NCBI RefSeq assembly: GCF_008271465.1
Contig: NZ_VMDU01000018.1
Span: forward strand, 1 to 55,927
Direction of reading: 5' to 3'
Length of the DNA stretch: 55,927 nucleotides
Origin: Tabrizicola flagellatus
Lineage (GTDB): Bacteria > Pseudomonadota > Alphaproteobacteria > Rhodobacterales > Rhodobacteraceae
Shown here: in pieces, positions 9,242 to 41,733 of the stretch
Layout: every line of letters starts with the position of its first letter
Position numbering within the stretch: position 1 is the stretch's first letter
The notes under the pieces: generated by a model
Database searches by the model: none
Told to the model about the DNA's origin: nothing
What the model saw: the letters and a program-made list of their open reading frames with translations, nothing else
Translations under genes and position numbers: made by a program

Positions 9242-9302
9242 CGCTCGTCGATGACTTCGTCACTCCTCGCTTGCGACGAGAAGCCGAAGGCGCACGAGGA
9301 GC
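9242..9302. repeat. Dispersed palindromic element, copy A
   Basis: Left arm GCTCGTCGATGACTTCGTC..., right arm ...CGACGAGAAGCCGAAGG...GAGGAGC; together they form an imperfect hairpin. The left arm is nearly identical to that of copy H, and the right arm is the reverse complement of the left arm of copy B/G. It lies in the divergent nth/ada-like gap, one of only two copies not at a convergent junction. Confidence 0.75.
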
Positions 9303-9319
9303 CGCCCGAGGAAACCAGG

Positions 9320-10150
9320 ATGACCGACCAGTCCCCGTCCTACCACTACCAGGTGATCGCCCGCGCGCTTGACGTGATCGATCGTGAAGGCCCGGCCCTG
9401 ACGCTGGAAGGCCTGGCCCAGCGGATGAGCATGAGCCCGGCGCATTTCCAGCGGGTGTTCAGCCAGTGGGTCGGCGTCAGCCCCAAGCGATATCAGCAAT
9501 ATCTGACGCTGGGCCATGCGCGCAGGCTGCTGGCGGAAAGGCATACCCTGCTTGGCACCACCCTTGAGACCGGCCTTTCCGGCACGGGACGCCTGCATGA
9601 CCTGTTCCTGACCTGGGAAGCGATGTCGCCTGGAGACTATGCCCGCGGCGGCGAAGGGCTGGAGATCCGCTGGGGCTGGTTCGAGACGCCCTTCGGTCCG
9701 GCCCTGGTCATGGCGACGGCAAGGGGCATCTGCGGCATGGGCTTTGCCGACGAGGTTGGCGCCGAGGCGGCGATGGAGGACCTTGTCGGCCGCTGGCCGA
9801 AGGCGAGCTATGTCGAGGACCCGAGGGCGATCCGTCCCCTGGTCGATACGGCCTTCGGCGGAAAGGCCACCAGCCTGCACCTGATCGGCGCCCCGTTCCA
9901 GATCAAGGTCTGGGAGGCGCTCCTGGCGATCCCCACCGGCCATGTCACCACCTATGCCGACATCGCCGGTGCCATCGGCCATCCGCAGGCCCACCGCGCC
10001 GTGGGCACGGCTGTCGGGCGCAACCCGATCAGCTTTCTCATCCCCTGCCACCGCGCCCTGCGCCGCGACGGGGGCCTTGGTGGCTATCACTGGGGCCTGC
10101 CGCGCAAGCGCGCCATGCTGGCCTGGGAGGCCGCGCGCACAGGTTTGTGA
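9320..10150 (+). CDS. Ada-like AraC-type regulator fused to O6-methylguanine-DNA methyltransferase
   Basis: A 276-aa protein with an N-terminal AraC-type helix-turn-helix (residues ~10-100; LEGLAQRMSMSPAHFQRVFSQWVGVSPKRY) and a C-terminal Ogt/MGMT domain. The methyl-accepting Cys is in IPCHRALRRDGGLGGYHWG. Suicide transfer of the methyl group repairs O6-methylguanine. Unlike E. coli Ada, there is no N-terminal Cys4 zinc domain for phosphotriester repair, so the methylation switch that turns Ada into an activator is missing; regulation by this protein is therefore unclear. The start is ATG 9320, since the longer frame upstream runs through repeat copy A. Confidence 0.9.
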   Translation: MTDQSPSYHYQVIARALDVIDREGPALTLEGLAQRMSMSPAHFQRVFSQWVGVSPKRYQQYLTLGHARRLLAERHTLLGTTLETGLSGTGRLHDLFLTWEAMSPGDYARGGEGLEIRWGWFETPFGPALVMATARGICGMGFADEVGAEAAMEDLVGRWPKASYVEDPRAIRPLVDTAFGGKATSLHLIGAPFQIKVWEALLAIPTGHVTTYADIAGAIGHPQAHRAVGTAVGRNPISFLIPCHRALRRDGGLGGYHWGLPRKRAMLAWEAARTGL

Positions 10151-10269
10151 ATGCGCGGAACCCTGCCGAGGGAGCAGGGAACTGCAAACCTCTCGACGGC
10201 GCTCGTGTAATGTGGCACGGGTCTGACCATCAGGCCCGGAACGGGCCGACAGCTGAGGCGAGAGCGAAC

Positions 10270-10926
10270 ATGATGACGAAAACCCCCCTTCTTCTTGCGA
10301 TGGCCGGCGCGCTGACCCTGACCGCCTGCGTCGATCCGAACGCCTATCCCGATGACCCGAACGCCCGGCAGCGCAGCGGCGCGATCATCGGCGGCCTCAC
10401 CGGCGCCGTGGCCGGGGCCGCGGTCTCTTCGGGCGACGACAAGCTGAAGGGCGTCCTCATCGGTGGCGTGCTGGGCGCGGGCACGGGCGCGCTGATCGGC
10501 GCCGACCTCGACCGGCAGGCCGCCGAACTGCGCGGGCAGTTGAACTCGAACATCTCGGTGACGAACACGGGCGAATACCTGATCGTCAACATGCCGCAGG
10601 ATCTGCTGTTCGCCGTCGACAGCGCCGCCGTGCGCCCCGACCTGCGCGCCGACCTGAACGCGGTGGCTTCTAGCCTGCTGAAATACCCCAACAGCCGGAT
10701 CGAGGTGATCGGCCATACCGACAACACCGGCGCCGCCGCCTACAACCAGGACCTGTCGCAGCGCCGTGCGGTCGCGGTGGCCTCGATCCTCCGCGAAAGC
10801 GGGGTGCCGGGGAGCCGGATCGCCGCCTATGGCCGGGGCGAGGACCAGCCGATCGCGTCGAACCTGACGCCCGAGGGCCGCGCCAAGAACCGCCGGGTCG
10901 AGATCATCATCCGCCCGACACGCTGA
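10270..10926 (+). CDS. OmpA-family lipoprotein with glycine-zipper segment
   Basis: A 218-aa protein with a lipoprotein signal ending in the lipobox LTAC (Cys20), which points to lipid anchoring, probably in the outer membrane. A Gly/Ala-rich stretch (IIGGLTGAVAGAAV ... IGGVLGAGTGALIG) forms a glycine zipper. The C-terminal OmpA domain has the peptidoglycan-binding signature IEVIGHTDNTGAAAYNQDLSQRRA and ends NRRVEIIIRPTR. It resembles YiaD-type proteins and probably tethers the envelope to peptidoglycan. A strong intrinsic terminator follows, so it is likely a single-gene transcript. Confidence 0.9.
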   Translation: MMTKTPLLLAMAGALTLTACVDPNAYPDDPNARQRSGAIIGGLTGAVAGAAVSSGDDKLKGVLIGGVLGAGTGALIGADLDRQAAELRGQLNSNISVTNTGEYLIVNMPQDLLFAVDSAAVRPDLRADLNAVASSLLKYPNSRIEVIGHTDNTGAAAYNQDLSQRRAVAVASILRESGVPGSRIAAYGRGEDQPIASNLTPEGRAKNRRVEIIIRPTR

Positions 10927-10947
10927 CGCAGCGGAAACTTTTGCAGG

Positions 10948-10973
10948 GGGGCCGGCCACCGCCGGCCCCTTTT
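10948..10973 (+). terminator. Intrinsic terminator after the OmpA lipoprotein gene
   Basis: A perfect 9-bp stem GGGGCCGGC/GCCGGCCCC with a 4-nt CACC loop, followed directly by TTTT. It is 22 nt past the stop codon and is the clearest Rho-independent terminator in the window. Confidence 0.88.
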
Positions 10974-11028
10974 CCATTGTAACGGCCTGGAATCGGTCAT
11001 AATTTCGGACCAATCAGCGGGGTCCACC

Positions 11029-11796
11029 ATGCCGTTCCTGAAAGTCGCCTCGGAAAAGCTGTCCAGCGCGGTTGTCCGCCAGATCGAGCAGTTGATCCTG
11101 CGCGGCATCCTGCGTCCGGGTGAGCGTCTGCCTTCAGAGCGCGATCTGGCCGAGAAACTGGGCGTCTCTCGCCCCAGCCTGCGCGATGCCATCGCCGAGT
11201 TGGCCGAGAACGGACTTCTGGTCAGCCGGGCCGGGTCGGGTATCTTTGTGGCGGACGTGCTGGGCTCGGCCTTCTCGCCGGCGCTGATCCGGCTGTTTTC
11301 TACCCATGAGGAGGCAGTCTTCGACTACATCGCCTTCCGCCGCGACATCGAGGGGCTGGCGGCGGAACGGGCCGCCGTGCACGGGTCGGAGACCGACCTG
11401 CGGGTGATCGACACGATCTTCGGCAAGATGGAACAGGCGCACCAGAAGCGCGACCCCTCGGACGAGGCGCAGCTGGATGCCGAGTTCCACATGGCGATCA
11501 TCGAGGCCAGCCACAACGTCATCATGCTGCACATGCTGCGGTCGATGTTCGACCTTCTGCGGCAGGGCGTGTTCTACAACCGGCAGATGATGTTCAGGAA
11601 CCGGATGACGCGGGATCACCTGCTGGACCAGCACCGGGCAATCAATGCCGGTGTGCAGGCGCGCGACCCGGAAGCCGCGCGCGCCGCCGTCACCGCGCAT
11701 CTGGCCTTCGTGGAACAGGCCTTCCACGACCAGATCCGGGCCGAAAGGCACGAGGCCATCGCCCGGCAAAGACTTGAGCACGAGACCGCGCGCTAG
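11029..11796 (+). CDS. GntR/FadR-family transcriptional regulator (FCD type)
   Basis: A 255-aa regulator. The N-terminal winged helix-turn-helix is clear (LRPGERLPSERDLAEKLGVSRPSLRDAIAELAENGLL near residues 27-62), and the C-terminal all-helical FCD ligand domain shows metal-ligand-like positions (DAEFHMAIIEASHN, HRAIN). FCD regulators usually respond to organic acids such as pyruvate, lactate or glycolate; the effector here cannot be read from the sequence. A weak dyad GGTC...GACC at about 10995-11011 just upstream of the start might be an autoregulatory site. The next gene, accA, has its own ribosome site about 90 bp on, and a regulatory link is not shown. Confidence 0.88.
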   Translation: MPFLKVASEKLSSAVVRQIEQLILRGILRPGERLPSERDLAEKLGVSRPSLRDAIAELAENGLLVSRAGSGIFVADVLGSAFSPALIRLFSTHEEAVFDYIAFRRDIEGLAAERAAVHGSETDLRVIDTIFGKMEQAHQKRDPSDEAQLDAEFHMAIIEASHNVIMLHMLRSMFDLLRQGVFYNRQMMFRNRMTRDHLLDQHRAINAGVQARDPEAARAAVTAHLAFVEQAFHDQIRAERHEAIARQRLEHETAR

Positions 11797-11885
11797 GGAC
11801 GCGGCCGGCCGCCGTGGCGCCTGCTGCCGAGTTGCATCGGGTCTTGCCCGAGGGCATATAGGGGCAGTCCCGCAAAGGAAGCGCC

Positions 11886-12845
11886 ATGCAGTATCTCGAC
11901 TTCGAAAAGCCGCTTGCCGACATCGAGGGCAAGGCCGAGGAACTTCGCGCCATGGCGCGGACCAATCCCGGGATGGATGTCTCGAAAGAGGCCGAGGCGC
12001 TGGACCGCAAGGCTGACCAGGCGCTGCGCGATCTCTACAAGACGCTGACGCCCTGGCAGAAATGCCAGGTGGCCCGTCACCCGGAACGGCCGCATTGCCT
12101 GGACTACGTCGAGGGGCTGTTCACCGAGTTCACCAGCCTGGCCGGGGACCGGGCCTTTGCCGACGACCATGCGGTGATCGGGGGGCTGGCGCGGTTCAAC
12201 GACCAGCCGGTGATGGTGATCGGCCACGAGAAGGGCAACGACACCAAGTCGCGCATCCAGCGCAATTTCGGCATGGCCCGGCCCGAGGGCTATCGCAAGG
12301 CGATCCGGCTGATGGACCTGGCCGACCGTTTCCGCATCCCGGTGATCACCCTCATCGACACCGCCGGCGCCTATCCCGGCAAGGGCGCGGAAGAGCGCGG
12401 CCAGGCCGAGGCCATCGCGCGCTCGACCGAGAAATGCCTGTCGATCGGCGTGCCGCTGGTCAGCGTGGTGATCGGCGAGGGCGGGTCGGGCGGGGCGGTG
12501 GCCTTCGCCACGGCGAACCGGGTCGCGATGCTGGAACATTCGATCTACTCGGTCATCAGTCCCGAGGGCTGCGCCTCGATCCTGTGGAAGGACGCCGAGA
12601 AGATGCGCGAGGCGGCCGAGGCGCTGCGGCTGACGGCGCAGGACCTGCAGAAGCTGGGGATCATCGACCGGATCGTGAAGGAGCCGCTCGGCGGGGCGCA
12701 GCGCGCGCCCAAGGAGGCGATCCAGGCGGTCGGCAAGGCGATCGAGGCGATGCTGGGCGAATTGTCGGGCAAGAAGCCCGAGGCGCTGGTCAGGGACCGG
12801 CGGCAGAAGTTCCTGGACATGGGCAAGAAGGGGCTTGCGGCTTGA
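11886..12845 (+). CDS. accA: Acetyl-CoA carboxylase carboxyltransferase subunit alpha
   Basis: AccA pairs with AccD (encoded at 39.5 kb) to transfer CO2 from carboxybiotin to acetyl-CoA, the first committed step of fatty acid synthesis. The protein is 319 aa, full length, from [14 protein letters not shown] through the conserved [11 protein letters not shown] and [12 protein letters not shown] motifs near residues 157-205 to a C-terminal [17 protein letters not shown] lies 5 nt upstream of the ATG. The stop codon overlaps the TTG start of the gdx-like gene, so the two are probably translated together. Confidence 0.97.
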
Positions 12846-13156
12846 GCCCCTGGGTGATCCTGGTCATCGCCGGGGTGCTGGAGATGGGCTGGGCGCTGGG
12901 GCTGAAGTATTCCGCGGGCTTCACGCGGCCGGTCCCCTCGGTGGCGACCATTGTCCTGGCGCTGGGGTCGTTCTACCTCTTGTCGGTGGCCATGAAGTCC
13001 TTGCCGGTGGGCACGGCCTATGCGGTCTGGGTGGGGATCGGCGCCATCGGAACCGCCATCGCGGCGGTGTTCCTGTTCCAGGAGCCGGTGAACCTGATGC
13101 GGGTGATGGGGGTGCTTCTCATCCTCGCCGGCATCGTGGCGCTGAAATTCGCATGA
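12842..13156 (+). CDS. gdx: SMR-family exporter, guanidinium (Gdx/SugE) type
   Basis: A 104-aa, four-helix small multidrug resistance protein. It carries the SugE/Gdx signatures: a Glu in TM1 ([14 protein letters not shown]) and [22 protein letters not shown] in the middle. Characterised SugE-clade proteins export guanidinium in exchange for protons. I read a TTG start at 12842 that overlaps the accA stop (TTGA), because no ATG precedes the first membrane helix in this frame. Being coupled to accA leaves no room for a guanidine riboswitch, which often precedes gdx genes elsewhere. It overlaps the next gene by ATGA. Confidence 0.87.
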
Positions 13157-13638
13157 TCCGGGCGCTGGCCCTGGCGCTGGCGCTGGCGGGGCCGACCGCG
13201 GCCGGCACGCTGGAGGGGCGGCTCGTCACCTTCACGGTCGAGACCTGGGACCAGCGCGAGGCGCCCTATCTGCGGGCACGGGGCCGGACGGTGACGGTTG
13301 GCCGGGGCGTCGAGTTCGGGCTGGAGCCGGAAGGGCTGACCGGGGGGCTGGACGTGGTGCCGGTGACGGTGGAGATCGGGCCGAGCCGGATCGAACTCGG
13401 CTACCCGCGCGGTCGGGGGCGGTTCTTCGAGGCGGCCTTCAACGGCTATGTGCTGCGCTTCGAGACCGAATGCGCGCTGTTCGAGGCGGTGGCGGTGGAC
13501 CCGGCGGGGACGACGATGCCGGTGCGCGAGATCTGGGCCGAGACGGGGGCGCTCTACATCAATGTCTCGGGGCTGGACTACGGGCCCGAGGCGCGGCTGG
13601 CGCTGGACATCGAGGTCGCGGACTGCCCGCTGAGCTGA
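13153..13638 (+). CDS. Secreted hypothetical protein
   Basis: 161 aa with a signal peptide ([18 protein letters not shown]) and a mature region rich in beta-type sequence. Two Cys residues, one in FETECALF and one in VADCPLS near the end, could form a disulphide. I do not recognise a family. It overlaps the gdx gene by 4 nt and is the last gene of the accA-gdx unit, so it is expressed with them; a functional link is not evident. Confidence 0.75.
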   Translation: MIRALALALALAGPTAAGTLEGRLVTFTVETWDQREAPYLRARGRTVTVGRGVEFGLEPEGLTGGLDVVPVTVEIGPSRIELGYPRGRGRFFEAAFNGYVLRFETECALFEAVAVDPAGTTMPVREIWAETGALYINVSGLDYGPEARLALDIEVADCPLS

Positions 13639-13736
13639 CCTGTCCACGGTGGACAGGGTTCGCCTGTGTCATGAAATCAACAGGTTGGCTGCGGGCGTCA
13701 AGGATCCGGAAAGGTTCGGCCGCAAGTGCGGGGGCC

Positions 13737-13804
13737 GCCTCCTCCTGCGCCTTCGGCTTCTCGTCGGTGCGCGGCAGCGATTGGGGACGAAGTCGCGGAA
13801 GATC
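13737..13804. repeat. Dispersed palindromic element, copy B
   Basis: The left arm is well conserved (CTTCGGCTTCTCGTCGG core); the right arm is eroded, keeping GGGACGAAGTCGCGGAAG. It fills part of the convergent gap between the secreted hypothetical gene and plsC. Confidence 0.65.
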
Positions 13805-13813
13805 GGCGGCCGG

Positions 13814-14539
13814 TCAGCCGCGGAAGCCGGCTTCGGCCATCAGGCGGTTCGAGCGGGTTTCGATCTCGGACTCGATGCGGGCCATGAACTCGGGAATGGG
13901 CAGGCCCGGGGCGATGGGGTCGAGGAATTCGACCACGGCAAGGCCGGGCTTCCTGAGGATGCCGCGCTTGGGCCAGAACAGGCCGACATTGGTCGCCACC
14001 GGCACGCAGGGCTGGCCGAGCTGTTCGTAGAGCAGGCCGGTCCCGACCTTGTAGGGCTTCACGTCGCCGGGGGCGACGCGGGTGCCCTGGGGATAGATGA
14101 TGAGCTGGCCGGGTTCGGCGGCGCCCCGGGCCACGTCGGCCTTCATCCGGGTGATGGCCGCGCCGCGCTTGCCGCGGTCCACCGGCACGCAGCCGATGCG
14201 CAGCGCATACTGGCCGAGGAAGGGGGCGAACATCAGTTCGCGCTTCATGATGAACTTGCCGGCCGGGACCGCGTCGAAGATCAGGATGATGTCGAGAAAG
14301 CTCTGGTGCTTGGCGGCGATCAGGCATTCGGCGGTGGGCGGCGTGCCGCGCACCTCGCAGCGCAGACCGGTGAGCAGCCGCAGCGAGACGATGACCCAGC
14401 GGCAGTAGGTCTTGGCCGCGACCCTCGCGCCACGGCGCGAGACGAGCGCCCAGGGGGCAAAGAGCACGGCCATCACGGCCATGACCAGATACATCTGGAC
14501 GATGAAGACCAGCGAAAGCAGCCAGCGGATCGGGGTCAT
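13814..14539 (-). CDS. plsC: 1-acyl-sn-glycerol-3-phosphate acyltransferase
   Basis: A 241-aa inner-membrane enzyme that adds the second acyl chain to make phosphatidic acid. An N-terminal membrane segment (residues 5-30) precedes the acyltransferase motifs. The family NHxxxxD motif is present as KHQSFLD near residues 77-83, with Lys in place of the usual Asn, and is followed by MKREL, YPQGTR (the EGTR-type block, here QGTR) and a VPVATNVG block. The start at 14539 overlaps the ftsX stop by 4 nt. Co-transcription with ftsEX links membrane lipid supply to division in this lineage, but that is inference from position. Confidence 0.91.
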   Translation of the reverse strand: MTPIRWLLSLVFIVQMYLVMAVMAVLFAPWALVSRRGARVAAKTYCRWVIVSLRLLTGLRCEVRGTPPTAECLIAAKHQSFLDIILIFDAVPAGKFIMKRELMFAPFLGQYALRIGCVPVDRGKRGAAITRMKADVARGAAEPGQLIIYPQGTRVAPGDVKPYKVGTGLLYEQLGQPCVPVATNVGLFWPKRGILRKPGLAVVEFLDPIAPGLPIPEFMARIESEIETRSNRLMAEAGFRG

Positions 14540-15432
14540 GTCAGCTCCCGCAGTTTCTGGAATGCGGCGCGGCGGGTGGCGGCGAAGGCCACGAGCGCGG
14601 CCAGGGGCGGCAGGGCCAGCGGCCAGAGCCAGCCCCAGCCGGTGAAGCCGAGCCCGGTCAGGAAGCCCCCGGCGGCGTCGGCGGCGGGCAGGGCGGCCAC
14701 GCCGATCAGCCCGGCAGCGGCGCCGATCGCGGCCCCGGTCAGCGCGCGCAGGGTGAAGCGGCGCACGAAGGCGCGGGCGATGTAGCTGTCCTTGGCGCCG
14801 ACGAGGCGCAGGACATGGATCACCTCGGCATTGGTGGCCAGCGCCGCGCGGGCGGCCAGCGTGATCATCGCGGCCATGGCCGCGCCGATCAGCGCTATGG
14901 ACAGGATCCCCAGAAGCCGGATGCGCGAGGCGGCCTCGGCCAGGGGGCGGCGCCAGCGGGTGTGGTCGTCCAGCAGAGCCCCGGGCGCCTCGGCGGCGAG
15001 GCGCTGGCGCAGCCCCTCGGAATCGTAGGGCGGTTCGCCTTCCACCACCTGGATCAGGCGGGGGATCGGCAGCGCCTCGACCGGCAGGCCGGGGCCGAAC
15101 CAGGGTTCGAGAAGCGCCCGCGTCTCGGCATCGTCGAGCGCGCGGAAGCTGGCGATGCCGGGGGTGGTGGCCAGCGTGGCGAGGATCGCGTCGGTCTGGA
15201 TCTGCACCTGTTCGGCGGGGGCCGAGAGGCGGATGGTGGCGGTCTTGGCCAGCGCCTCGGACCAGCGGTTGGCCAGGCGCCCGGAGGCGAGCGAGAGGGC
15301 GAGCGCGAAGACGCAGAGGAAGGTCATCGCCCCTGCGGTGAAGGTGGTCAGCCAGGCAGTGGGGCCGGAGGGCGGGACGACCTCGAGTGCGCGGGTGGCG
15401 GGCGAGGCGGGCTTGGCGGTCGGCAGTCTCAA
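14536..15432 (-). CDS. ftsX: Cell division protein FtsX
   Basis: 298 aa. FtsX is the membrane subunit of the FtsEX complex, which couples ATP hydrolysis to septal peptidoglycan hydrolase activation. One membrane helix near residues 28-50 (LTTFTAGAMTFLCVFALALS), a periplasmic domain of about 100 residues, then three more helices (ILSIALIGAAMAAMITLAARAAL and following) match the family. No ATG is available before the first helix; a TTG at 15432 overlapping the ftsE stop (TTTGA) is the best start. ftsE, ftsX and plsC overlap by a few bases each, so they form one leftward operon. Confidence 0.88.
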   Translation of the reverse strand: MRLPTAKPASPATRALEVVPPSGPTAWLTTFTAGAMTFLCVFALALSLASGRLANRWSEALAKTATIRLSAPAEQVQIQTDAILATLATTPGIASFRALDDAETRALLEPWFGPGLPVEALPIPRLIQVVEGEPPYDSEGLRQRLAAEAPGALLDDHTRWRRPLAEAASRIRLLGILSIALIGAAMAAMITLAARAALATNAEVIHVLRLVGAKDSYIARAFVRRFTLRALTGAAIGAAAGLIGVAALPAADAAGGFLTGLGFTGWGWLWPLALPPLAALVAFAATRRAAFQKLRELT

Positions 15433-16106
15433 AGGTCGGCCCCCGCAAGCTGGACGCGGTGCTTGGCGATGCGCAGGACGCGGGCCTGGATCTGCGCCTT
15501 GGCCTGGCGGATGAGGTTCAGGTCGTGGGTGGCGACGAGGATGGTCTTGCCCATCTTGTTCAGTTCGACCAGCAGCGTGAGGATGCGGAGCGACATTTCC
15601 CAGTCCACGTTGCCGGTGGGTTCGTCGGCAAGGATGATGTCGGGATCGACGATCACCGCGCGGGCCAGAGCCGCGCGCTGGCGTTCGCCGCCCGAGAGTT
15701 GCGGCGGCAGCGCGTCGGCGAGATGCTTCAGCCCGACCCAGCCGAGGAGGTCCTCCATGTCCTGGGCGCTGCTTTCGCGGTCGGACACGGTAAAGGGCAG
15801 CGCCATGTTGGCCGCCAGCGTCATGTGGTCGAGGAACTTGCAGTCCTGGTGGACGATGCCGATGCGGCGGCGGGTGCGGGCCACGTCGTCGCGCGACAGC
15901 GTGGTCACGTCCTTGTCGAACAGGATGACGCGGCCCGAGGTCGGGATCAGCTCGGCATAGGCAAGTTTCAGGAAGGTGGACTTGCCCGCACCCGATGGGC
16001 CGGTCAGGAAGTGGAACGACCCGGGCGCGAGCTTCAGCGAGACATTCGACAGAAGCTCGCCCCCGCCATAGCTGTAGGCCACGTTCTCGAAGCTGATCAC
16101 GGTCAT
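15429..16106 (-). CDS. ftsE: Cell division ATP-binding protein FtsE
   Basis: A 225-aa ABC ATPase partner of FtsX. Walker A GPSGAGKST, Q-loop HQDCKFLDHMTLAANM, signature LSGGERQRAALARA, Walker B DIILADEPTGNVD and the switch His in VATHDLN are all present. The start MTVISFENV at 16106 fits the family. The frame extends further upstream without similarity, and AGGGG abuts this ATG, so the GTG two codons later, at better spacing, is an alternative. It is the first gene of ftsE-ftsX-plsC and is divergent from the zinc-ribbon gene across about 170 bp. Confidence 0.94.
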   Translation of the reverse strand: MTVISFENVAYSYGGGELLSNVSLKLAPGSFHFLTGPSGAGKSTFLKLAYAELIPTSGRVILFDKDVTTLSRDDVARTRRRIGIVHQDCKFLDHMTLAANMALPFTVSDRESSAQDMEDLLGWVGLKHLADALPPQLSGGERQRAALARAVIVDPDIILADEPTGNVDWEMSLRILTLLVELNKMGKTILVATHDLNLIRQAKAQIQARVLRIAKHRVQLAGADL

Positions 16107-16278
16107 CCCCTGCTTTCGGCTTCGGGCGGCTGTCCAAGGCCGCACCGAAGTGACTGCGCTTTCCATCGCACAGGCGGAAACGATTGCACAAGGGCGCGCG
16201 ACATTGCCTTGGAACCACAGGAATTAAGGATTACAAGTTCGAGTGGCGACCGGAAAAACAGGCGTTGAGGGGACAGGA

Positions 16279-17376: not shown

Positions 17377-17451
17377 GGACCAATTCGGCTTGCCCCCGCG
17401 CGGGCAGGCCTTTATCCCTTGCGGCCGACCCATGATCCGCGAGGAACCGCC

Positions 17452-19185: not shown

Positions 19186-19190
19186 GGTCG

Positions 19191-20318: not shown

Positions 20319-20321
20319 GGC

Positions 20322-20399
20322 AAGGCCTCGTCGTGCGCCTTCGGCTTCTCCTCGGGGCGCGGACCCCGCGAGGAGCGGCGAAGCCGACGACGAGCCGTT
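20322..20399. repeat. Dispersed palindromic element, copy C
   Basis: The best-preserved hairpin of the family: CGCCTTCGGCTTCTCCTCG on the left faces CGAGGAGCGGCGAAGCCGAC on the right. It fills almost the whole convergent gap between the small hypothetical gene and the peroxiredoxin gene. Confidence 0.8.
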
Positions 20400-20401
20400 C
20401 C

Positions 20402-23395: not shown

Positions 23396-23400
23396 GCGGG

Positions 23401-23467
23401 GCCTCCTCGTTCGACTTCGTCTCCTCGTCGGGGCGCGCTGCGAGGAGGGACGAAGTCCACGACGAGC
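23401..23467. repeat. Dispersed palindromic element, copy D
   Basis: Left arm GCCTCCTCGTTCGACTTCGT..., right arm CGAGGAGGGACGAAGTCC...GACGAGC. It occupies nearly all of the 74-bp convergent gap between the HAD gene and recR. Confidence 0.8.
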
Positions 23468-23469
23468 GG

Positions 23470-24066: not shown

Positions 24067-24069
24067 GGC

Positions 24070-28851: not shown

Positions 28852-28890
28852 TCCTGCCACATCGAAGGCATGCCCCATCGGAGGGAAGAG

Positions 28891-28990
28891 GTGAGAGGCT
28901 GGACAACGACCCAAGCGGGGCTCGTTACGGCTGCTTCCTTCCGGACCTGACCGGGTTGGCGAGGCGCCTGCCCGCGCCAACCTCTCGCAG
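28891..28990 (-). ncRNA. ffs: Signal recognition particle 4.5S RNA
   Basis: The complement carries the universally conserved SRP core GGTCAGGTCCGGAAGGAAG followed by CAGCC (about 28929-28953), which binds Ffh. Outer strands GAGAGGTTGG (5') and CCAGCCTCTC (3') pair to close a ~100-nt hairpin, as in the bacterial small SRP RNA. The ends are set by that outer helix and are accurate to a few bases. Confidence 0.95.
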
Positions 28991-29026: not shown

Positions 29027-29105
29027 GCTCGGGCCGCCTCTTCTCTTCCTTCGGATCCTCCCTGGAAGGGCAGGAGCGAGGAGGGCACGAAGGGCTCGAC
29101 GAGCC
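29027..29105. repeat. Dispersed palindromic element, copy E (divergent)
   Basis: The most diverged copy. The right half GCGAGGAGGGCACGAAGGG and CTCGACGAGC follow the family; the left half is eroded. It lies between ffs (-) and the M24 gene (+), a divergent junction. Confidence 0.5.
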
Positions 29106-30522: not shown

Positions 30523-30542
30523 CCGGGGGCCCCCACCCCCAT

Positions 30543-30566: not shown

Positions 30567-30644
30567 AGCCGCGCCATCTGACGCGGCGTTCCGGGTGACG
30601 CGGGGGCCGGGTTTCGCCATTCTCGCCCCGCAAGGGAGACCGCC

Positions 30645-32672: not shown

Positions 32673-32678
32673 CGCCGA

Positions 32679-32746
32679 GGCTCGTCGGCGGCTTCGCCTC
32701 TCCTCGCGGACTTGCCGAGGAGAAGACGAAGTCGCACGACGAGGGG
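32679..32746. repeat. Dispersed palindromic element, copy F (reverse orientation)
   Basis: Left arm GGCTCGTCGGCGGCTTCGCC, right arm CGAGGAGAAGACGAAGTCG...; relative to copies D and G the two arms are swapped. It fills the convergent gap between fadH and the EF-hand gene. Confidence 0.78.
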
Positions 32747-32751
32747 CAGCG

Positions 32752-33012: not shown

Positions 33013-33379
33013 GGAAGTCTCCTTTTCTACCCATGATTGCGTGGCGCGGGTTTTCCCGCCACGGAGGCTAGCTAAGGGCTTGTGGGACGATGTTCCATAT
33101 GACTTCGCTGAAGTAGGGATCTGTTGACATATATCCGCCCATGGCACGCTATCGGCGGAACTTTTTCCCGCCCATGGCGGTCGGGTCGGCCTTTGCTTGC
33201 CCAGCGGATTTCACGTTTCAGGCGAGAGTTTGCCAGGGAAATGGCACGAGCCGCCGTTTCCTCGCCCACAACGATCCCCCACAATACCCCGGATCGGTCG
33301 CGCGATTGCCGCCATCCTGCCCGATTTCCTTGTGAAACCTGTTTGTCACAAACGGCGTGATTGTTCCCAAGAGGACACT
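33013..33379. other. Divergent intergenic region, EF-hand/LysR
   Basis: A 367-nt region, locally A+T-richer than its surroundings, serving two divergent genes. It holds a GCGGG-TTTT-CCCGC hairpin in the EF-hand leader (33046-33059), a short ACTTC/GAAGT dyad (33102-33114), a TTGACA box at 33124-33129 with no well-placed -10 partner I trust, and an inverted repeat close to the LysR gene. No gene is supported. Confidence 0.6.
33330..33351. promoter_or_regulatory. Inverted repeat upstream of the LysR-type gene
   Basis: TTGTGA-N10-TCACAA, centred about 40 nt upstream of the LysR start codon. Its position fits an autoregulatory site; the geometry is not a CRP/FNR site (N6/N4). Confidence 0.4.
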
Positions 33380-34285: not shown

Positions 34286-34342
34286 GTGCCCGTCAGCCCT
34301 TTTGGAATTTCAGTCGGTCCTCTCCCCCCTCTGGATCGACCG

Positions 34343-35287: not shown

Positions 35288-35308
35288 TGCCCGGGTCGCT
35301 TTCCGCGA

Positions 35309-36004
35309 TCATTTCATGCGGTAATGATACTGTCCCACGATGCCCATGCCAAGGCGGGCATAGAGTGCGCGGGCGGCGGTGTTCTGCCGGGTGACGACCA
35401 GGGACAGCCGGGTCGCGCCCTGATCTGCCGCCCAGTTCGCCGCCGCATGCAAGAGCGTCGCCCCGACCCCGCGCCGGCGCAGGCCGGGGCGGACCTCCAG
35501 CGCATGCAGCATCGCCTCGGCACCGTGGCAGGCGACGAAGGCCACCCCGGCGGGGCGGTCCCCGCTGCGCGCCAGGAGTGCCGCCCTGGCCCCCGTCACC
35601 CGCTCCATCACCGCGATCCGGGCCGGGCCGATGCCGCCCTCGGCCCAGATCGCGCGGGCGATCTCCAGCGGTGGCCAGTGCGGGAAGGCGGCCAGCGGCG
35701 GAAGCTCGGCCTTCAGATCGGCGACCGGGGCGGCATAGGCGACCACCGGATCGACCACGCGCCAGCCCCGCGCCTCCAGGCATGCGTCCAGCGCGCTGTC
35801 CTCGGCCCGGACCAGCATCAGGGGTTCGGCCATCGCGGCCTCGGCCGCCGCAAGCCCTTCCTCGGTGAAGGCGCCGTCGCAACTGGCAGCCGAGACCCGC
35901 TTGCCCCCGCCCGCCCCGTCGCGCAACGTGAAGGGACCGACCTGCCAGCGCCGCAGCGGCGGCCAGGTCGCCTCCATCACCTCGGCCAGCAGCGCGGGCG
36001 TCAT
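35309..36004 (-). CDS. GNAT-family N-acetyltransferase
   Basis: 231 aa. A degenerate N-terminal half is followed by a standard GNAT domain: HALEVRPGLRRRGVGATLLHAAANWA (motif A, RRxGVG) and VTRQNTAARALYARLGM (motif B). The substrate is unknown. It overlaps the CinA-like gene by 4 nt. Confidence 0.86.
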   Translation of the reverse strand: MTPALLAEVMEATWPPLRRWQVGPFTLRDGAGGGKRVSAASCDGAFTEEGLAAAEAAMAEPLMLVRAEDSALDACLEARGWRVVDPVVAYAAPVADLKAELPPLAAFPHWPPLEIARAIWAEGGIGPARIAVMERVTGARAALLARSGDRPAGVAFVACHGAEAMLHALEVRPGLRRRGVGATLLHAAANWAADQGATRLSLVVTRQNTAARALYARLGMGIVGQYHYRMK

Positions 36005-36720
36005 CCGAACAGCTGCGTCAGGCGGACCATCGCGGCATCGACCCGCGCCGGATCGGTGCCGCGGATCACCAGGTTCGTGCCATGCGCGCCATTCTGGATG
36101 AAGGGGTAGGAGCCCATGGACAGGTCGGGAAACTCGGCTGCGAGCGCGGCGAAGGGGGCGGCGATCTCGCCCTCGCCGCGATCGACGCGCAGGGATTGCG
36201 ACAGGAGTGGCGGCCCGCCGGTCAGCCGGGGCAGGACCGAGGCGACCATGGCCTGGAAGATGTTCGGCACGCCCGCCATCACATGCACGTTGCCGATGGT
36301 GAAGCCCGGCGCGGTGGAAACCGGGTTGTCGATCAGGGTGGCCCCGTCCGGGATCCGCGCCATGCGCTGCCGCGCCTCGTTGAAGGGCAGGCCCGCGCGG
36401 TCGTAATGCGCCTGCAAGAGCGCCATGGCATCGGCCCGGTGGCCGATCCTCGCGCCCATCGCCTCGGCCACGGCATCGGCGGTGATGTCGTCATGCGTCG
36501 GCCCGATGCCGCCGCTGGTGAAGAGATGGTCATAGCGGCCCGACAGCGCGCGCACGGCGGCCACGATGTCCTCGTGCACATCGGCAACCACCCGCGCCTC
36601 GCGCAGCGCGATGCCGATCCGGGTCAGTTCCCCGGCCAGGTAGTGCATGTTGGAATCGCGGGTTCGGCCCGACAGGATCTCGTCGCCGATCACCAGCATC
36701 GCCGCGGTCGGATTGGTCAT
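36001..36720 (-). CDS. CinA-like MoaB/Mog-fold protein (N-terminal domain only)
   Basis: 239 aa. The molybdopterin-binding (MoaB/Mog) fold is clear: VIGDEILSGRTRDSN, FTSGGIGPTHDDITADAVAEAMG, NPVSTAPGF and VMAGVPNIFQAM. CinA proteins of this form can act as ADP-ribose or FAD pyrophosphatases. The C-terminal nicotinamide-nucleotide amidase (PncC) domain of full CinA is absent, which is common in Alphaproteobacteria. The start is ATG 36720. It is divergent from map. Confidence 0.88.
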   Translation of the reverse strand: MTNPTAAMLVIGDEILSGRTRDSNMHYLAGELTRIGIALREARVVADVHEDIVAAVRALSGRYDHLFTSGGIGPTHDDITADAVAEAMGARIGHRADAMALLQAHYDRAGLPFNEARQRMARIPDGATLIDNPVSTAPGFTIGNVHVMAGVPNIFQAMVASVLPRLTGGPPLLSQSLRVDRGEGEIAAPFAALAAEFPDLSMGSYPFIQNGAHGTNLVIRGTDPARVDAAMVRLTQLFG

Positions 36721-36835
36721 CGCGCTTCCTCGCTGTTGCCGCTGCCGCAGGTATAGCCGCACCGGGTGGGCTTTCAAACCCCGGCCTCTGGCCAATTCTC
36801 CCCGGTCGTCTTATGTAGGGTGCAAGGAGAGCCGG

Positions 36836-37705
36836 ATGGACGACGTGCGCGCCAGGATCACCAAGGACGGCATCCGCATCTACGAGGATGCGGATTTCGC
36901 CGGCATGCGGACGGCGGGCCGGGTCGCGGCCGAGATCCTCGACGCGGTGGTGCCGCTGGTGGTGCCGGGCGCCACGACAGGGGCGATCGACGATTTCATC
37001 ACCGAGGAAATCAGGCGCCGCGGCGTGACCTCGGCCACCATCGGCTACAAGGGATACAAGCACGCTTCCTGCATCAGCGTGAACCATGTCGTCTGTCACG
37101 GGATCCCCGGCGCGCCGATCCCGATGAGCAAGTCCGAGACGATCTCGCGCGATCTGGAAAAGCGGCGCAAGGATGACGTGCTGCGGGACGGCGACATCCT
37201 GAACATCGACGTCACCGTGATCGTGGACGGCTGGTATGGCGACACGAGCCGGATGTATGTGGCCGGCAAGCCCTCGCCCATGGCCGCGCGGCTGATCGAG
37301 GTCACGCACGAGGGCCTGATGCGCGGCATCGCGGCGGTGAAGCCCGGAAACACCTTCGGCGACATCGGCCACGCGATCCAGGCCTATGTCGAGGCGCAAA
37401 GGATGAGCGTGGTGCGCGACTTCTGCGGCCATGGTCTGGGCCGGGTGTTCCACGCGCCGCCGAACGTGCTGCACTACGGCCGCGCCGGGTCGGGGCCGGT
37501 GCTGGAGGAAGGCATGTTCTTCACCATCGAGCCGATGGTGAACCTCGGGAGGCCCGAGACCAATGTCCTGGCTGACGACTGGACTGCGGTCACCCGCGAC
37601 AAGTCGCTGTCGGCGCAGTTCGAGCATTCGGTGGGGGTCACCGCCACGGGTTGCGAGATCTTCACCCTGTCCCCTGCGGGCAAGTTCCACCCGACCTGGG
37701 GCTGA
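36836..37705 (+). CDS. map: Methionine aminopeptidase, type I
   Basis: 289 aa. It removes the initiator Met from nascent proteins. All five metal ligands are visible: the two Asp in LNIDVTVIVDGWYGDTSRM, the His in GHGLGRVFHAPP, and the Glu in FFTIEPMV and QFEHSVGVT. An insertion of about 20 residues (MSKSETISRDLEKRRKDD) sits before the first Asp, which I believe is usual in Rhodobacterales. AAGGAGA precedes the ATG. Confidence 0.96.
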   Translation: MDDVRARITKDGIRIYEDADFAGMRTAGRVAAEILDAVVPLVVPGATTGAIDDFITEEIRRRGVTSATIGYKGYKHASCISVNHVVCHGIPGAPIPMSKSETISRDLEKRRKDDVLRDGDILNIDVTVIVDGWYGDTSRMYVAGKPSPMAARLIEVTHEGLMRGIAAVKPGNTFGDIGHAIQAYVEAQRMSVVRDFCGHGLGRVFHAPPNVLHYGRAGSGPVLEEGMFFTIEPMVNLGRPETNVLADDWTAVTRDKSLSAQFEHSVGVTATGCEIFTLSPAGKFHPTWG

Positions 37706-37716
37706 CCCTCGGGCAC

Positions 37717-37790
37717 GCCTCCTCGTTCGCCTTCGGCTTCTCGTCGGTCGTGCCGTGCCCTGCGAGGAGCGACGAAGTCGCCGACGAGCC
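37717..37790. repeat. Dispersed palindromic element, copy G
   Basis: Left arm GCCTCCTCGTTCGCCTTCGG..., right arm GACGAAGTCGCCGACGAGCC. Close to the family consensus. It fills the convergent gap between map and the molybdopterin oxidoreductase gene. Confidence 0.82.
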
Positions 37791-37796
37791 GTCGGT

Positions 37797-38561
37797 CTAG
37801 ATCCCCGCGTACCATTCATAGCCCCGGTCGGCCCAATAGCTGCCGCGGCCCCGGCCCAGGGCGGCAAGGCTGTCCACCAGTTCGATGCCATGGACATACT
37901 TGGCCATCTTGTAGCCAAGCTGCCGTTCAACCCGTAGCCGCAGCGGTGCCCCGTTCGCCACTGGCAGCGGCATGCCGTTCATGGCGTAGGCGAGGATGGT
38001 CTGCGGATGGAAGGCTTCGATCAGGTCGATCGATTCATAGTAGAAGACCTCGCCCGATAGCCCGCGCTCGATGGCGTCGAAACAGTGGAAGACGGCATAG
38101 CGCGCCGCGAGCTTCGGCCGGGCCAGCCGCAGCACCGTGCCCAGCGGCACACCCTGCCATCTGGCGATGCAGCTCCAGCCCTCGACGCAGTCGTGCCGGG
38201 TGATCTGAGTCCGTGACGGGAGCGCGGTCAGGGCGGCCAGCGACAGGCTTTGCGGCGCCTCGACCAGCCCGGTCACAGTCAGCCGATAGTCGGCAAAGCC
38301 GCTGGCCGCCATCCGGCGGTAGCCGGCGCCGGAGGGGTCGGTCGAGCCATTGGGGCGCTGGCCCTGGCGGATGTCGGCCTCCGAGTATTCCGGCGCGAGG
38401 CTGTCGCCGATCAACGCGCGCTGGGCGGCCCGGGTCAGCCCCTCATGGCTGGCGAAGAGGGCGCGCAGGCGGCTCTCGGGCTCGGTCGCGCTGTCGAAGA
38501 CCCTGCATCCCGAAAGGGCAAGGGCCGCCCCGCCCAAGAGGAGCCTGCGACGATCAAGCAT
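37797..38561 (-). CDS. Sulfite oxidase-family (YedY-like) molybdopterin oxidoreductase
   Basis: 254 aa. The N-terminus, [19 protein letters not shown], is both a twin-arginine-like signal and a lipobox, so the protein is probably exported folded and lipid-anchored. The Mo-coordinating Cys is in HDCVEGWSCIARW, and NGAPLRLRVERQLGYKMAKYV matches the sulfite oxidase-fold cofactor region. Family members reduce or oxidise small S- or N-containing compounds, or oxidised methionine. The substrate is unknown. It overlaps the cytochrome b gene by 8 nt, the likely electron partner. Confidence 0.86.
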   Translation of the reverse strand: MLDRRRLLLGGAALALSGCRVFDSATEPESRLRALFASHEGLTRAAQRALIGDSLAPEYSEADIRQGQRPNGSTDPSGAGYRRMAASGFADYRLTVTGLVEAPQSLSLAALTALPSRTQITRHDCVEGWSCIARWQGVPLGTVLRLARPKLAARYAVFHCFDAIERGLSGEVFYYESIDLIEAFHPQTILAYAMNGMPLPVANGAPLRLRVERQLGYKMAKYVHGIELVDSLAALGRGRGSYWADRGYEWYAGI

Positions 38562-39345
38562 CGCTCACTCCATCGGTGCGATACCAGCCGGTCAGGATCG
38601 ACCGCATCTCGTTCACGGGGCCGGCCAGAATGATCATCGCCATGTGCACGGCGAAGAAGCCCAGAAGCGCCAGCATGGTCAGGAAATGGATGGTCCGAGC
38701 GGTCTGCCGACCGCCGAAGAGCTCGGGCAGCCAGGGCAGGGCGGCGGTGACGCCGGGTGACATGGACAGCCCGGTCAGGATCATCACCGGCAAGGCCAGG
38801 AACAGCACGAAGGCATAGGCGAGCTTCTGCAGCGCGCCATAGTTCGCCGCGTGGTGGAACCTCAGCCGGGCGTGATCGGCGATGTCGCGCGGCAGGGCGC
38901 GGAGGTCGGCCAGCGTCGGGACCAGCTGGCGCAGATGCCCGTTCAGCGCCGAGGCCGCCAGCCACAGGATCAGCGTGCCGACCAGCAGCCAGGCGAAGAA
39001 GAAATGGATGATCCGACCCGTCGCGAGGCTGGTCTTCGACGGGATGGTGAGGGCGGCGGGAAAGGCGCGGACCTCGCCCCGCGAGACGCCGAGGACCCCG
39101 GTCGTGTCGAACTCGGCCCCCAGGATCCGGGTCACGCCGCGCAGACCGGCCGGCGTCTCGACCGCGCCGATGGCCAGGATGGCGTTGTCGTAGTCGAAGC
39201 CCGATTCCCGCCCGATGTGCAGGCTGGGAAAGGCGTTGAAGATCTGCAGGCCCGTCAGCAGCAGGAAGAACAGGCTGACGGCCCAGACCCAATGCGCGAT
39301 CCGGGTTGGCAGGCGGTGTCGGTAGATCAGCGGTCCGTGGGGCAT
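38554..39345 (-). CDS. Cytochrome b561-type membrane subunit
   Basis: 263 aa. Four or five membrane helices are visible ([83 protein letters not shown]), with paired His residues suited to two b haems. It belongs to the cytochrome b561/formate dehydrogenase gamma-like group. It probably passes quinol electrons to the adjacent molybdopterin protein. The start is [15 protein letters not shown] at 39345; the upstream extension lacks similarity. Confidence 0.85.
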
Positions 39346-39481
39346 CCGTGGCCTCCTTTCCGCTGAAGCAACGGGCCGCCGACGCAGAAGTTTCACCAAC
39401 CCCGGCAAGACTGCGCTGATTGCATTTCCGCACGTCGGGGCTTATCTCGGGAAGCCGAAGCGAAGGGGCAGCAGGCACGGC

Positions 39482-40399
39482 ATGAACTGGATCACCAACT
39501 ACGTCCGTCCGAAGATCAACTCGCTGTTCTCGCGCCGCGAGGTGCCCGAGAACCTGTGGACCAAGTGCCCCGAATGCGGGACGATGCTGTTCCACCGCGA
39601 GCTTGCGGCGAACCTCAACGTCTGCGGCACCTGCGACCACCACATGACGATCAGCCCCCGCGCGCGCTTCGAGGCGCTGTTCGATGGCGGCATCTTCACC
39701 GAGGTCAAGGTGCCCGAGCCGCTGGTGGATCCGCTGCAGTTCCGCGACCAGAAGAAATACACCGACCGGCTGAAGGCCGCGCAGAAGGCCAGCGGCGAGA
39801 AGGACGCGATGCTGGTGGCCGAGGGCGAGATCGGCCGCACCCCCATCGTCGCCGCCGCGCAGGACTTCAGCTTCATGGCCGGGTCGATGGGCATGTATGT
39901 CGGCAACGCGATCATCGCGGCCGCCGAACGCGCGGTAAAGCTGAAGCGGCCGCTGGTGCTGTTCTCGGCCAGCGGCGGGGCGCGGATGCAGGAGGGGATG
40001 CTCTCGCTCATGCAGATGCCGCGCACCACGGTCGCGGTGCAGATGCTGAAAGAGGCGGGCCTGCCCTACATCGTCGTCCTCACCCATCCGACGACCGGCG
40101 GCGTGACGGCCAGCTATGCCATGCTGGGCGACGTGCAGATCGCCGAGCCCAATGCCCAGATCGGCTTTGCTGGTGCCCGGGTGATCGAACAGACCATCCG
40201 CGAGAAACTGCCCGAGGGCTTCCAGCGCGCGGAATACCTGCTGGACCACGGGATGCTGGACCGCGTGGTGCATCGCAAGGCGATGAAGGATGAGCTTGTC
40301 ACCCTGATCCGCCTGCTGACCGGCCAGCCCCCGGCCATCAAGGGCGACCTGGCGCCGCCGGCGGAAAAGCCGGCGGACAAGGTGGAAGCGAAGGCGTGA
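39482..40399 (+). CDS. accD: Acetyl-CoA carboxylase carboxyltransferase subunit beta
   Basis: 305 aa. AccD completes the carboxyltransferase with AccA. The N-terminal Cys4 zinc finger is [13 protein letters not shown]...NVCGTC (residues ~29-51), and the carboxyltransferase core follows with [23 protein letters not shown] and [13 protein letters not shown]. The GTGA overlap with folC gives the standard accD-folC pair. Confidence 0.97.
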
Positions 40400-41667
40400 C
40401 GCTCAGCTCGGATGTCATCCTCGACCGGATGATGACGCTGCATCCCAAGGTCATCGATCTGACCCTGGGCCGCGTCGAACGGCTGCTGTCGGCGCTGGGC
40501 AACCCGGAGCGGGCAATTCCCCCCGTAATCCACATCGCCGGGACCAACGGCAAGGGCTCGACCCAGGCGATGATCCGGGCGGGGCTCGAGGCGGGCGGCG
40601 ACCGGGTGCATGCCTATACCTCGCCGCATCTCGCCCGGTTCCACGAACGCATCCGCCTGGCGGGAGAGCTGATCTCGGAACCCGCGCTGACCGCGCTTCT
40701 GGACGAATGCGTGGCGGCGAACGGCGGGGAAGAGATCACCTTCTTCGAGATCACCACCTGCGCGGCCTTCCTGGCCTTTGCCCGCACGCAGGCGGACTGG
40801 ACGCTGCTGGAGGTCGGCCTTGGCGGGCGGCTCGATGCGACGAACGTGGTGGACCATCCGCGGCTGACGATCATCACGCCCGTGTCGATGGATCACGAAT
40901 CGTTCCTGGGCGATACGGTTGCCAAGATCGCCGGCGAAAAGGCCGGGATCATCAAGCGCGGCGTGCCGGTGATCGTCGGGCCGCAACACCCCGACGGTCT
41001 GGCGGTGATCGAGGCGCAGGCCGCGCGGCTGGGTGCTCCGGTCCTGGCGCATGGCCAGCACTGGCAGGCCTTCGAGGACCGCGGCCGCCTGATCTATCAG
41101 GACGAGACCGGGCTTCTGGATCTGCCGCTGCCGAACCTGCCCGGACCGCACCAGATCCAGAACGCGGGCGCGGCCATCGCCGCCCTGCGCGCGCTCGGCC
41201 GGGACGAGGCCGCCTGCGAGGCCGCCGTCACCCGCGCCGTCTGGCCCGCCCGGATGCAGCGTCTGCGCCGGGGGCCGCTGGTGGACCTTGCGCCGCAGGT
41301 GGAACTCTGGCTCGACGGCGGGCACAACCCCGCGGGGGGCGAGGCGGTGGCGGCAACCCTGGCGCGGATGCCCCGGCGCGAGACGCATCTGATCTGCGGT
41401 ATGCTGAACACCAAGGACGTGACGGGCTACATGCGCCCGCTGGCCCCGCAGGTCGCGCGCCTGCATGCGGTGTCGATCCCGGGCGAGAAGAACACCCTGC
41501 CCGCCGAAGCCACCCGTGACGCGGCCCGCGCGGCCGGGATGGATGCGGTCACCGCCGGCTCGGTTGCCGAGGCGCTGGCCGGCATCGCCGCCACATCCCC
41601 CGAGGCGCGGGTGCTGATCTGCGGCTCGCTCTATCTGGCAGGGACGGTGCTGCGCGAGAACGGGTAA
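40396..41667 (+). CDS. folC: Dihydrofolate/folylpolyglutamate synthase
   Basis: 423 aa. FolC joins glutamate to dihydropteroate and extends folate polyglutamate tails. The ATP-binding [12 protein letters not shown], the [12 protein letters not shown] block, [14 protein letters not shown] and the C-terminal [12 protein letters not shown] ligase motifs are in place. The start is GTG 40396 overlapping the accD stop; no ATG fits as well. Confidence 0.96.
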
Positions 41668-41733
41668 GGCTCGTCGATGACTTCGTCACTCCTCGCGGCG
41701 CTACCGACGAGGAGACGCAGTCGAACGAGGAGG
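41668..41733. repeat. Dispersed palindromic element, copy H (reverse orientation)
   Basis: The left arm is the same as that of copy A; the right arm is CGACGAGGAGACGCAGTCG...GAGGAGG, the complement of the left arm of copy D. It spans the whole 66-bp gap between the convergent folC and TetR genes. Confidence 0.8.

Follow-up and report, generated by a model that had tools for sequence, protein, structure and literature searches.

The described systems closest to the repeat reported here are repetitive extragenic palindromes (REPs) arranged as doublets. The CGTC-tagged REP dimers or bacterial interspersed mosaic elements (BIMEs) of alphaproteobacteria are presented, in the passages of PMC3733652 that deal with their structure and distribution, as inverted dimers of short imperfect palindromes, mostly heterodimers in several families, lying mainly in convergent and unidirectional gaps, those in convergent gaps being mostly less than 20 bp from both stop codons. 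Their copy number differs several-fold between strains and, according to the same passages, no dedicated transposase is known for them. The relevant portion of PMC3116915 portrays REPINs as extragenic and predominantly inverted doublets with conserved arms and a variable spacer, for which a single-stranded DNA hairpin has been proposed. Here we describe an element alike in these respects, found in a stretch of 55,927 nucleotides from Tabrizicola flagellatus (assembly GCF_008271465.1; bases 1-55,927 of contig 18, NZ_VMDU01000018.1; hereafter the window). It is a repeat of about 70 letters, positioned directly behind stop codons and occurring about a hundred times in a genome of 3.62 Mb and 42 contigs. 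It probably represents a dispersed element, similar to a REP doublet and made of self-pairing G.A arms, that has spread to gene ends in a few genera of Paracoccaceae, with a Tabrizicola-like genus at its centre.

We report its anatomy, the covariation within its arms, its location at gene ends, its patchy counts among relatives and the orthologous copies that relatives share. The first-pass annotation of the window had suggested either a two-way transcription terminator or a spreading, REP-like element that settles between gene ends. That observation was real and the REP-like reading is supported by the inverted arms, the roughly 100 places occupied, the 3'-end location, the uneven counts across the genus and the junctions that are short or otherwise filled in relatives. 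None of the entries listed in literature searches describes the element, and a term search of the main text of RepRanger (PMC12306157) found no mention of Rhodobacter, Tabrizicola or Paracocc.

Pairing within the arms

A covariance model, R1, was built from the seven strong copies in the window, both arms being required and 150 candidates scored. Genome-wide it found at least 107 distinct places at E ≤ 1 (8 in the window and 99 elsewhere), 96 of them at 30 bits or more and 85 at 40 bits or more. Read along its purine-rich strand, each arm has the form S0-CGA-S-GAG, a linker, a mini-stem with a three-base loop, a linker and CGA-S'-GAG-S0', and the element consists of two such arms facing each other, inverted, around a variable loop. 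From the outside inwards the arm pairs S0 with S0' and C with G; a tandem G.A/A.G step follows, then the free S-S' pair of Watson-Crick type, another tandem G.A step, G with C, the linker and the mini-stem. The outermost S0-S0' pairs are mostly G-C or C-G and are followed by C-G. The mini-stem, mostly 3-4 bp, is closed by a C(GNA)G triloop, with GAA, GCA or GGA and C-G closure in at least 86 of the 96 left arms and at least 80 of the 96 right arms. This tip is of the same class as the GNA-loop mini-hairpins, such as d(GCGAAGC), which part of PMC4686876 describes as extraordinarily stable in DNA; those are synthetic oligonucleotides, whereas here the tip crowns a natural repeat. The two half-arms share identical GA dinucleotides, so that an antiparallel fold opposes G/A and A/G twice, and the steps are kept in 179-186 of the 192 arms at each of the four positions. 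By analogy with tandem G.A motifs in general, these would be sheared pairs.

The pairing was assessed quantitatively over the 96 copies scoring at least 30 bits. In the left arm, Watson-Crick pairs were found in 89/94 cases at S0, 92/96 at S and 94/96 at the mini-stem pair x, the right arm giving 94/96, 90/96 and 80/96, respectively. Within-arm pairing thus ranges from 83 to 98%, and all six values lay above those of every one of 2000 shuffles. Between arms, these positions paired in 24-49% of cases, against 31-51% by chance. For S, the two between-arm counts were 23/96 for the outer pair (30.6 expected; 1979 of 2000 shuffles at least as high) and 26/96 (29.3); for S0, 47/96 (49.3) and 45/94 (47.4). 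Only x of the left arm with x' of the right lay slightly above chance (44/96 against 36.6, reached by 102 of 2000 shuffles), the other x combination giving 35/96 against 33.0. In 55/96 copies the four S letters read C,G,G,C, their most frequent arrangement, which in a long hairpin would set C against C and G against G; crossed pairing of S (64/96 and 65/96) is near expectation (59.5 and 59.0). Across 136 distinct arms the covariation score of the proposed structure was 0.450, compared with 0.101 after shuffling and no more than 0.027 for slid structures. The few cells departing from Watson-Crick pairing (42/901) comprised 5 GT, 10 AC and 27 others, with no preference for G.U.

The first reading of the element as an imperfect hairpin formed by one arm with the other is correct as to the two inverted arms, but according to the pair counts the conserved pairing lies within the arms and not between them. 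A long arm-to-arm hairpin as the conserved structure was rejected by the counts in this genome and in the two congeners considered below. A cloverleaf in which the mini-stems alone form side arms was likewise set aside, as it leaves the S-S' and S0-S0' pairs unexplained.

A strict arm pattern matched 218 times in the sampled DNA of this genome, 193 times inside R1 places and 25 outside. In reversed sequence it matched 25 times, a control counted with overlaps between stretches. S and S' paired in 167/193 of the matches inside R1 places, in 13/25 outside and in 1/25 in the control. The arm scan allowing two mismatches proved far too loose and was not used, whereas the 17-mer given in the first-pass annotation, at up to two mismatches, gave 71 matches against 9 for the reversed pattern. 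These figures bear on an artefact of composition or template switching, in which GC-rich imperfect palindromes at gene ends would have been made self-complementary by quasi-palindrome correction. Template switching can indeed yield coordinated changes in hairpins. Nevertheless we regard this explanation as very improbable: correction would have turned the G.A steps, too, into Watson-Crick pairs, but at least 179/192 arms retain each of them, and both the strict pattern and its S-S' pairs are rare in the reversed control.

The same pairing recurs in relatives. Congener copies were parsed strictly, with at most one word mismatch per arm and each distinct copy counted once. Among 18 copies in congener G001, S pairs within arms in 18/18 and 17/18 (10.0 and 9.7 expected) and S0 in 17 and 17 of 18 (12.4 and 9.7), with S pairing between arms in 4/18 and 5/18 (8.0 and 8.3). 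The 15 copies in congener G314 gave 12/15 and 14/15 for S within arms (6.6 and 7.2) and 2/15 and 6/15 between them (6.6 and 6.3). Three distinct copies from two other genera (G198 and G299), too few for a test, had S paired within arms in 3/3 and 3/3 and between arms in 0/3 and 0/3; a Frigidibacter copy has A-T type pairs at S. A looser count (21 copies in G001, 18 in G314 and 5 in other genera, these 5 including one doubled copy and one bad parse) yielded the same picture and gave way to the strict one.

In all three genomes the outer S letters of the two arms pair with each other less often than chance predicts (23/96 in our own, 4/18 in G001 and 2/15 in G314), a hint that a perfect long hairpin may be selected against. 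In the part of their paper concerned with heterodimers, Di Nocera et al. (PMC3733652) discuss that these may escape the removal of large hairpins.

Comparison with the named families can now be made more closely. The CGTC and GTAG REPs have a conserved unpaired head, and there is no equivalent here: at each of 10 positions flanking either arm on either side, even the most frequent base stays at or below about 65%. The CGTC found inside CTCGTCG is part of the base-paired stem, and its G covaries with the base opposite. In place of the 8-9 bp Watson-Crick stem of the CGTC REPs, with AT pairs first, single pairs alternate with tandem G.A steps. The cited portion of PMC3116915 reports compensatory changes across the doublet hairpin of REPINs; here they fall within arms, and S pairing between arms is near or below chance. 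Finally, unlike the situation for REPINs, no RAYT-type (Y1) transposase scores over the cut-off in any of the 32 genomes of the genus. The element is accordingly filed as functioning like a REP doublet and placed outside any named REP family, because it lacks the unpaired head, the AT-starting stem, a RAYT and cross-doublet compensation.

Variant arrangements were also seen. At locus L116:3473-3531 (G000:C11:40072-40130) the order of the arms is reversed, the purine arm leading and a single base separating the two, and a locus of another genus, L270, seemingly has the same order.

Placement at gene ends

The 96 copies scoring at least 30 bits comprise 56 at convergent junctions, 31 at codirectional ones, 2 at divergent ones and 7 called inside a gene. 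Some of these last directly follow an upstream stop, the called start of the next gene probably running too far upstream. A genome-wide covariance-model search with tabulation of junction types, as envisaged for the element from the outset, thus finds a strong excess at convergent junctions: 56/89 copies, compared with 48/372 junctions in 20 systematic tiles of the genome (binomial 5e-28). A stop codon lies within 130 bp on both sides of 55 copies, on one side of 34 and on neither side of 7. For the 144 stops so defined, the distance to the copy has a median of 5 bp and is no more than 20 bp in 125/144; of the codirectional copies, 25/31 lie closer to the stop upstream of them than to the start downstream. 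The preference for convergent and codirectional gaps, close to stops, follows the precedent of the CGTC REPs.

Occupancy is nevertheless partial. At 30 bits or more, the element was present in 3/12 tile convergent gaps of 60-120 bp, in 0/27 below 50 bp, in 0/9 longer ones, in 3/277 codirectional and in 0/47 divergent junctions, with partial copies in two further tile gaps (L061 and L065). The element is only one among several gene-end devices in the genome.

These positions naturally raise the possibility of a bidirectional transcription terminator or 3'-end protector, with converging transcripts ending in, or being trimmed to, the arm-to-arm hairpin or a purine arm. Besides the 125/144 nearby stops within 20 bp and the 25/31 codirectional copies nearer the upstream stop, such a role would suit the mean predicted stability of the arm-to-arm hairpin (-36.9 kcal/mol) and the AT-rich tandem palindromes, resembling two-way terminators, that some relatives carry at two of the junctions. 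Bidirectional intrinsic terminators share the gene-end location and the two-way symmetry, but the element has neither a T-run nor a conserved long stem. Within 20 nt after the sense arm, TTTT occurs at only 3/34 one-sided and 2/110 convergent gene ends, and the arm-to-arm pairing that the long hairpin needs is not conserved. In the 34 one-sided copies the antisense arm is as intact as the sense arm (7.53 and 7.47, respectively, of 8 features), and there are hardly any G.U pairs. Furthermore, the element is missing, at the 30-bit threshold, from 9/12 tile convergent gaps of 60-120 bp, and 2/32 genomes of the genus lack any arm match at E ≤ 1e-5. Taking both sides together, we consider a terminator or protector role unlikely, although it is the foremost of the alternatives.

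RNA helices usually tolerate G.U. Since G.U pairs are scarce here, the antisense arms intact and T-runs lacking, we lean to a role at the DNA level, or one blind to strand, rather than a sense-RNA hairpin alone; a hairpin of the sense-strand RNA only was discarded as unsupported, given the equally intact antisense arms of one-sided copies.

A DNA-level role could also be that of a double-stranded site at which gyrase, a nucleoid protein or another chromosomal protein binds, which would be of use between convergent genes, where positive supercoils accumulate, as for the REPs of E. coli, whose gyrase role is mentioned in the pertinent passage of PMC3733652 and counts in its favour. The convergent enrichment and the keeping of both arms irrespective of the direction of transcription would both fit. 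However, a dimer site would be symmetric, and the G.A steps present the same one-strand word in both half-sites, not an inverted one; moreover, two of the 32 genomes of the genus have no match. Nor does protein binding readily yield compensatory pair changes, and we judge such a site to be decidedly improbable.

Two unusual placements complement these counts. A three-arm cluster at L068:10735-10844 (G000:C1:49407-49516) occupies the gap from which an S15 peptidase gene and a pirin gene diverge, and a full arm lies within a called coding gene at L077:3502-3531 (G000:C2:227072), resembling reported intragenic REPs.

Relatives and the copies of the window

Searching relatives with a covariance model of the arm, R2 (150 candidates scored per genome), as had been proposed for the element, gave matches at E ≤ 1e-5 in 30/32 genomes of the genus, our own included, with counts from 0 to at least 119; the remaining 2/32 had no match at this threshold. 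This patchiness is again reminiscent of the CGTC REPs. In a family-wide sample of 295 genomes, under stricter filters and at E ≤ 1e-6, R2 was positive in 4 and R1 in 5; these include the present genome and G001, and R1 extends to three other genera. No match to copy D of the window was found in plasmid and phage collections.

Many copies can be compared at orthologous positions. Of 46 congener copies parsed, 18 have an ortholog pair in the sampled DNA of the present genome, the other 28 being absent or outside that sampled DNA; a loose pattern marked 17/46 as shared, some of them wrongly (L239, L244). In ten orthologous pairs from strict parsing, between our genome and G001 or G314, the arms are 86% identical (509/589) and the loops 40% (50/124). 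Two looser parses (13 pairs; arms 637/768, loops 63/180) were set aside for misaligned arms. The x pair is the same in 8 cases; in 7 both of its bases differ and still pair, and in 2 only one base differs. These sequences argue for repeated compensation in the mini-stem. By eye, the tip of the ortholog pairs L234/L099 and L242/L087 switches between two types with the outer S polarity unchanged, as if tips were exchanged as modules.

Two junctions of the window could be followed in other genomes. The FolC of the window is 89% identical to that of Tabrizicola thermarum and related records, and the folC junction, that of copy H, is readable in 16 relatives. T. soli has the element there, with one extra mini-stem pair. 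AT-rich palindromes occupy the junction in 4/16 and other sequence in 2/16 (L154 and L157, the former resembling a decayed copy by eye), and in 9/16 more distant relatives, with FolC about 79-82% identical, it measures 6-22 nt including the stop, these being too diverged for showing target duplications. At the junction of copy G, all three readable relatives carry AT-rich palindromes, one of them shortened.

The tandem AT-rich palindromes at junctions G and H of other Tabrizicola-like genomes are of the CAAAATCC TTCG.. type (L149:1337-1398 and L149:5269-5337; also L148, L150, L153 and L155). Every one of the 32 genomes of the genus has 1-20 matches to the pattern on each strand, our own having 3. 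The idea that such palindromes replace the element across the genus was dropped, there being no clear anticorrelation of the counts by eye.

For the window itself, genes were called by our own codon-usage program, which finds 92% of it coding; starts are approximate and stops more reliable. Eight copies, A to H, had been claimed from the sequence. Seven are strong (A, B, C, D, F, G and H, with R1 scores of 69-83 bits, circular in that R1 was built from those seven), and E, which is not in the model, is only half an element. The reported orientation also stands: A, F and H lie on the minus strand and B, D and G, with C in addition, on the plus strand. B, C, D, F, G and H occupy convergent gaps, as the independent gene calls confirm, with 0-11 bases from stop codon to element; the exception is the 98 bases on one side of B, and H overlaps one stop side by one base.

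Copy D (23401-23468, plus; 82.8 bits), in the convergent gap 23396-23469, has the highest R1 score; its arms are 23402-23431 (minus) and 23440-23467 (plus), with R2 scores of 46.0 and 41.8 bits. Copy C (20325-20396, plus; 77.7 bits) fills most of the gap 20319-20401, with arms 20326-20355 (minus) and 20368-20395 (plus) at 45.0 and 40.9 bits. Copy F (32679-32745, minus; 80.7 bits) has arms 32680-32707 (minus) and 32715-32744 (plus), scoring 38.3 and 45.6 bits, in the gap 32673-32751, and copy G (37717-37790, plus; 80.5 bits) lies in the gap 37706-37796, its arms 37718-37747 (minus) and 37762-37789 (plus) scoring 45.0 and 40.4 bits. Copy H (41668-41734, minus; 80.0 bits), with arms 41669-41696 (minus) and 41704-41733 (plus) at 40.4 and 44.3 bits, separates folC (40396-41667, plus) from a convergent TetR-type gene (41734-42366, minus). 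Copy B (13737-13805, plus; 69.3 bits) stands in the gap 13639-13813 with a good left arm, 13738-13767 (minus; 38.1 bits), and a degraded right one.

The two remaining copies are placed differently. Copy A (9242-9303, minus; 72.8 bits), with purine strands 9243-9270 (minus) and 9273-9302 (plus) scoring 40.4 and 46.8 bits, lies between endonuclease III-like and Ada-like genes pointing apart, the called start of the latter overlapping it. Copy E (29036-29105, plus; 24.5 bits) has a clear right arm, 29076-29104 (plus; 34.4 bits), and a degenerate left half, and is found in a divergent gap beside the signal recognition particle (SRP) RNA gene at 28890-28986 (minus).

Our gene calls agree that 6/7 convergent gaps of at least 60 bp in the window contain the element. 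The seventh (53509-53701) holds, as had been stated, another palindrome, which is AT-rich and precedes tRNA-Pro (53578-53654). The window is unusually rich in this respect, 6/7 comparing with the 3/12 occupied tile gaps of 60-120 bp at 30 bits or more, and its density of copies (7 strong in 56 kb) far exceeds the average for the genome (3.62 Mb, with 85 copies scoring at least 40 bits). An Rfam scan of the window at gathering score matched only tRNA and SRP RNA, and copy D alone gave one sub-threshold match to a microRNA family (E 0.14).

Other repeats were noted at gene ends. By eye, a longer one opening with a TGTCCAC..GGACAG palindrome occurs at several of them: 13639-13735 of the window, just before copy B, L052:4622-4903 and L057:5203-5361. 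Variants of the word GAGTATTTGGAAAAGGGCAAG, also by eye and often after a GC-rich hairpin, form a facing pair in the window (4269-4300 and 4465-4496) and recur at L050:7942, L052:1340, L057:156 and L065:12947. A candidate further repeat, CTGAACGCCCGC..CAACCCATTGA, present for example beside an arm at L139:1179, is only suggestive, with 52 loose matches against 23 reversed.

A proposed mobile doublet

On the favoured reading, that of a REP-like doublet with self-pairing G.A arms, the doublet would have reached about a hundred gene ends, vertical descent would account for the persistence of many copies, and selection would hold the arms while the loop drifts. New copies may arise when the doublet is duplicated as a mobile unit, preferably by way of a single-stranded DNA intermediate, and may be kept at gene ends since insertion there would be harmless or helpful. 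A more specific form of this reading is put forward tentatively: a mobile doublet independent of RAYTs, with arms selected as single-stranded DNA hairpins, of alternating Watson-Crick and tandem sheared G.A pairs under a GNA cap, which a putative host or mobile enzyme would recognise, the arms being kept mutually mismatched.

Several results weigh against the favoured reading. In all 95 elements folded (of 96), the arm-to-arm hairpin is the structure that energy models choose, the averages being -36.9 kcal/mol as RNA and -20.3 as DNA, compared with -6.8 and -3.1 for the right purine arm alone. Either the models undervalue the non-canonical helix, or the arms act when their partner is unavailable (protein-bound, extruded or partly replicated), or founder types are responsible; part of the covariation could reflect founder arm types copied many times. 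In the ortholog pairs, S and S0 were unchanged in 32 cases, with 1 compensated double change, 1 other double change and 6 single changes, some of the single ones stemming from three arms of our own genome (partners of L232, L238 and L242) which are 3 bases short owing to an ambiguous word. These pairs, moreover, derive from congener copies mapped onto DNA of our genome that was enriched for copies. S0 in G314 is uninformative within arms (left 12/15, 10.3 expected; right 15/15, 15.0) and between them pairs as composition predicts (14/15 and 11/15). As to an agent of movement, Y1_Tnp (PF01797) scored over the cut-off in 0/32 genomes of the genus, with 2 weak sub-threshold matches and a positive E. 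coli control, and 0/20 genes scanned beside copies was a transposase, 2/20 lacking any Pfam match.

The novelty lies in the self-pairing G.A arm, taken as the unit on which selection acts. If the more specific, tentative form is true, natural repeats would here be selected for a non-canonical G.A helix. About two hundred natural arms in one genome offer a clean covariation signature of non-canonical G.A hairpins, in an element that a routine palindrome finder or energy model would take for a single long hairpin. The element also combines REP-like behaviour with the lack of the usual tag and of a RAYT, and, with genomes ranging from no detectable arm to more than 100, it makes the spread and retention of gene-end doublets testable within one genus.

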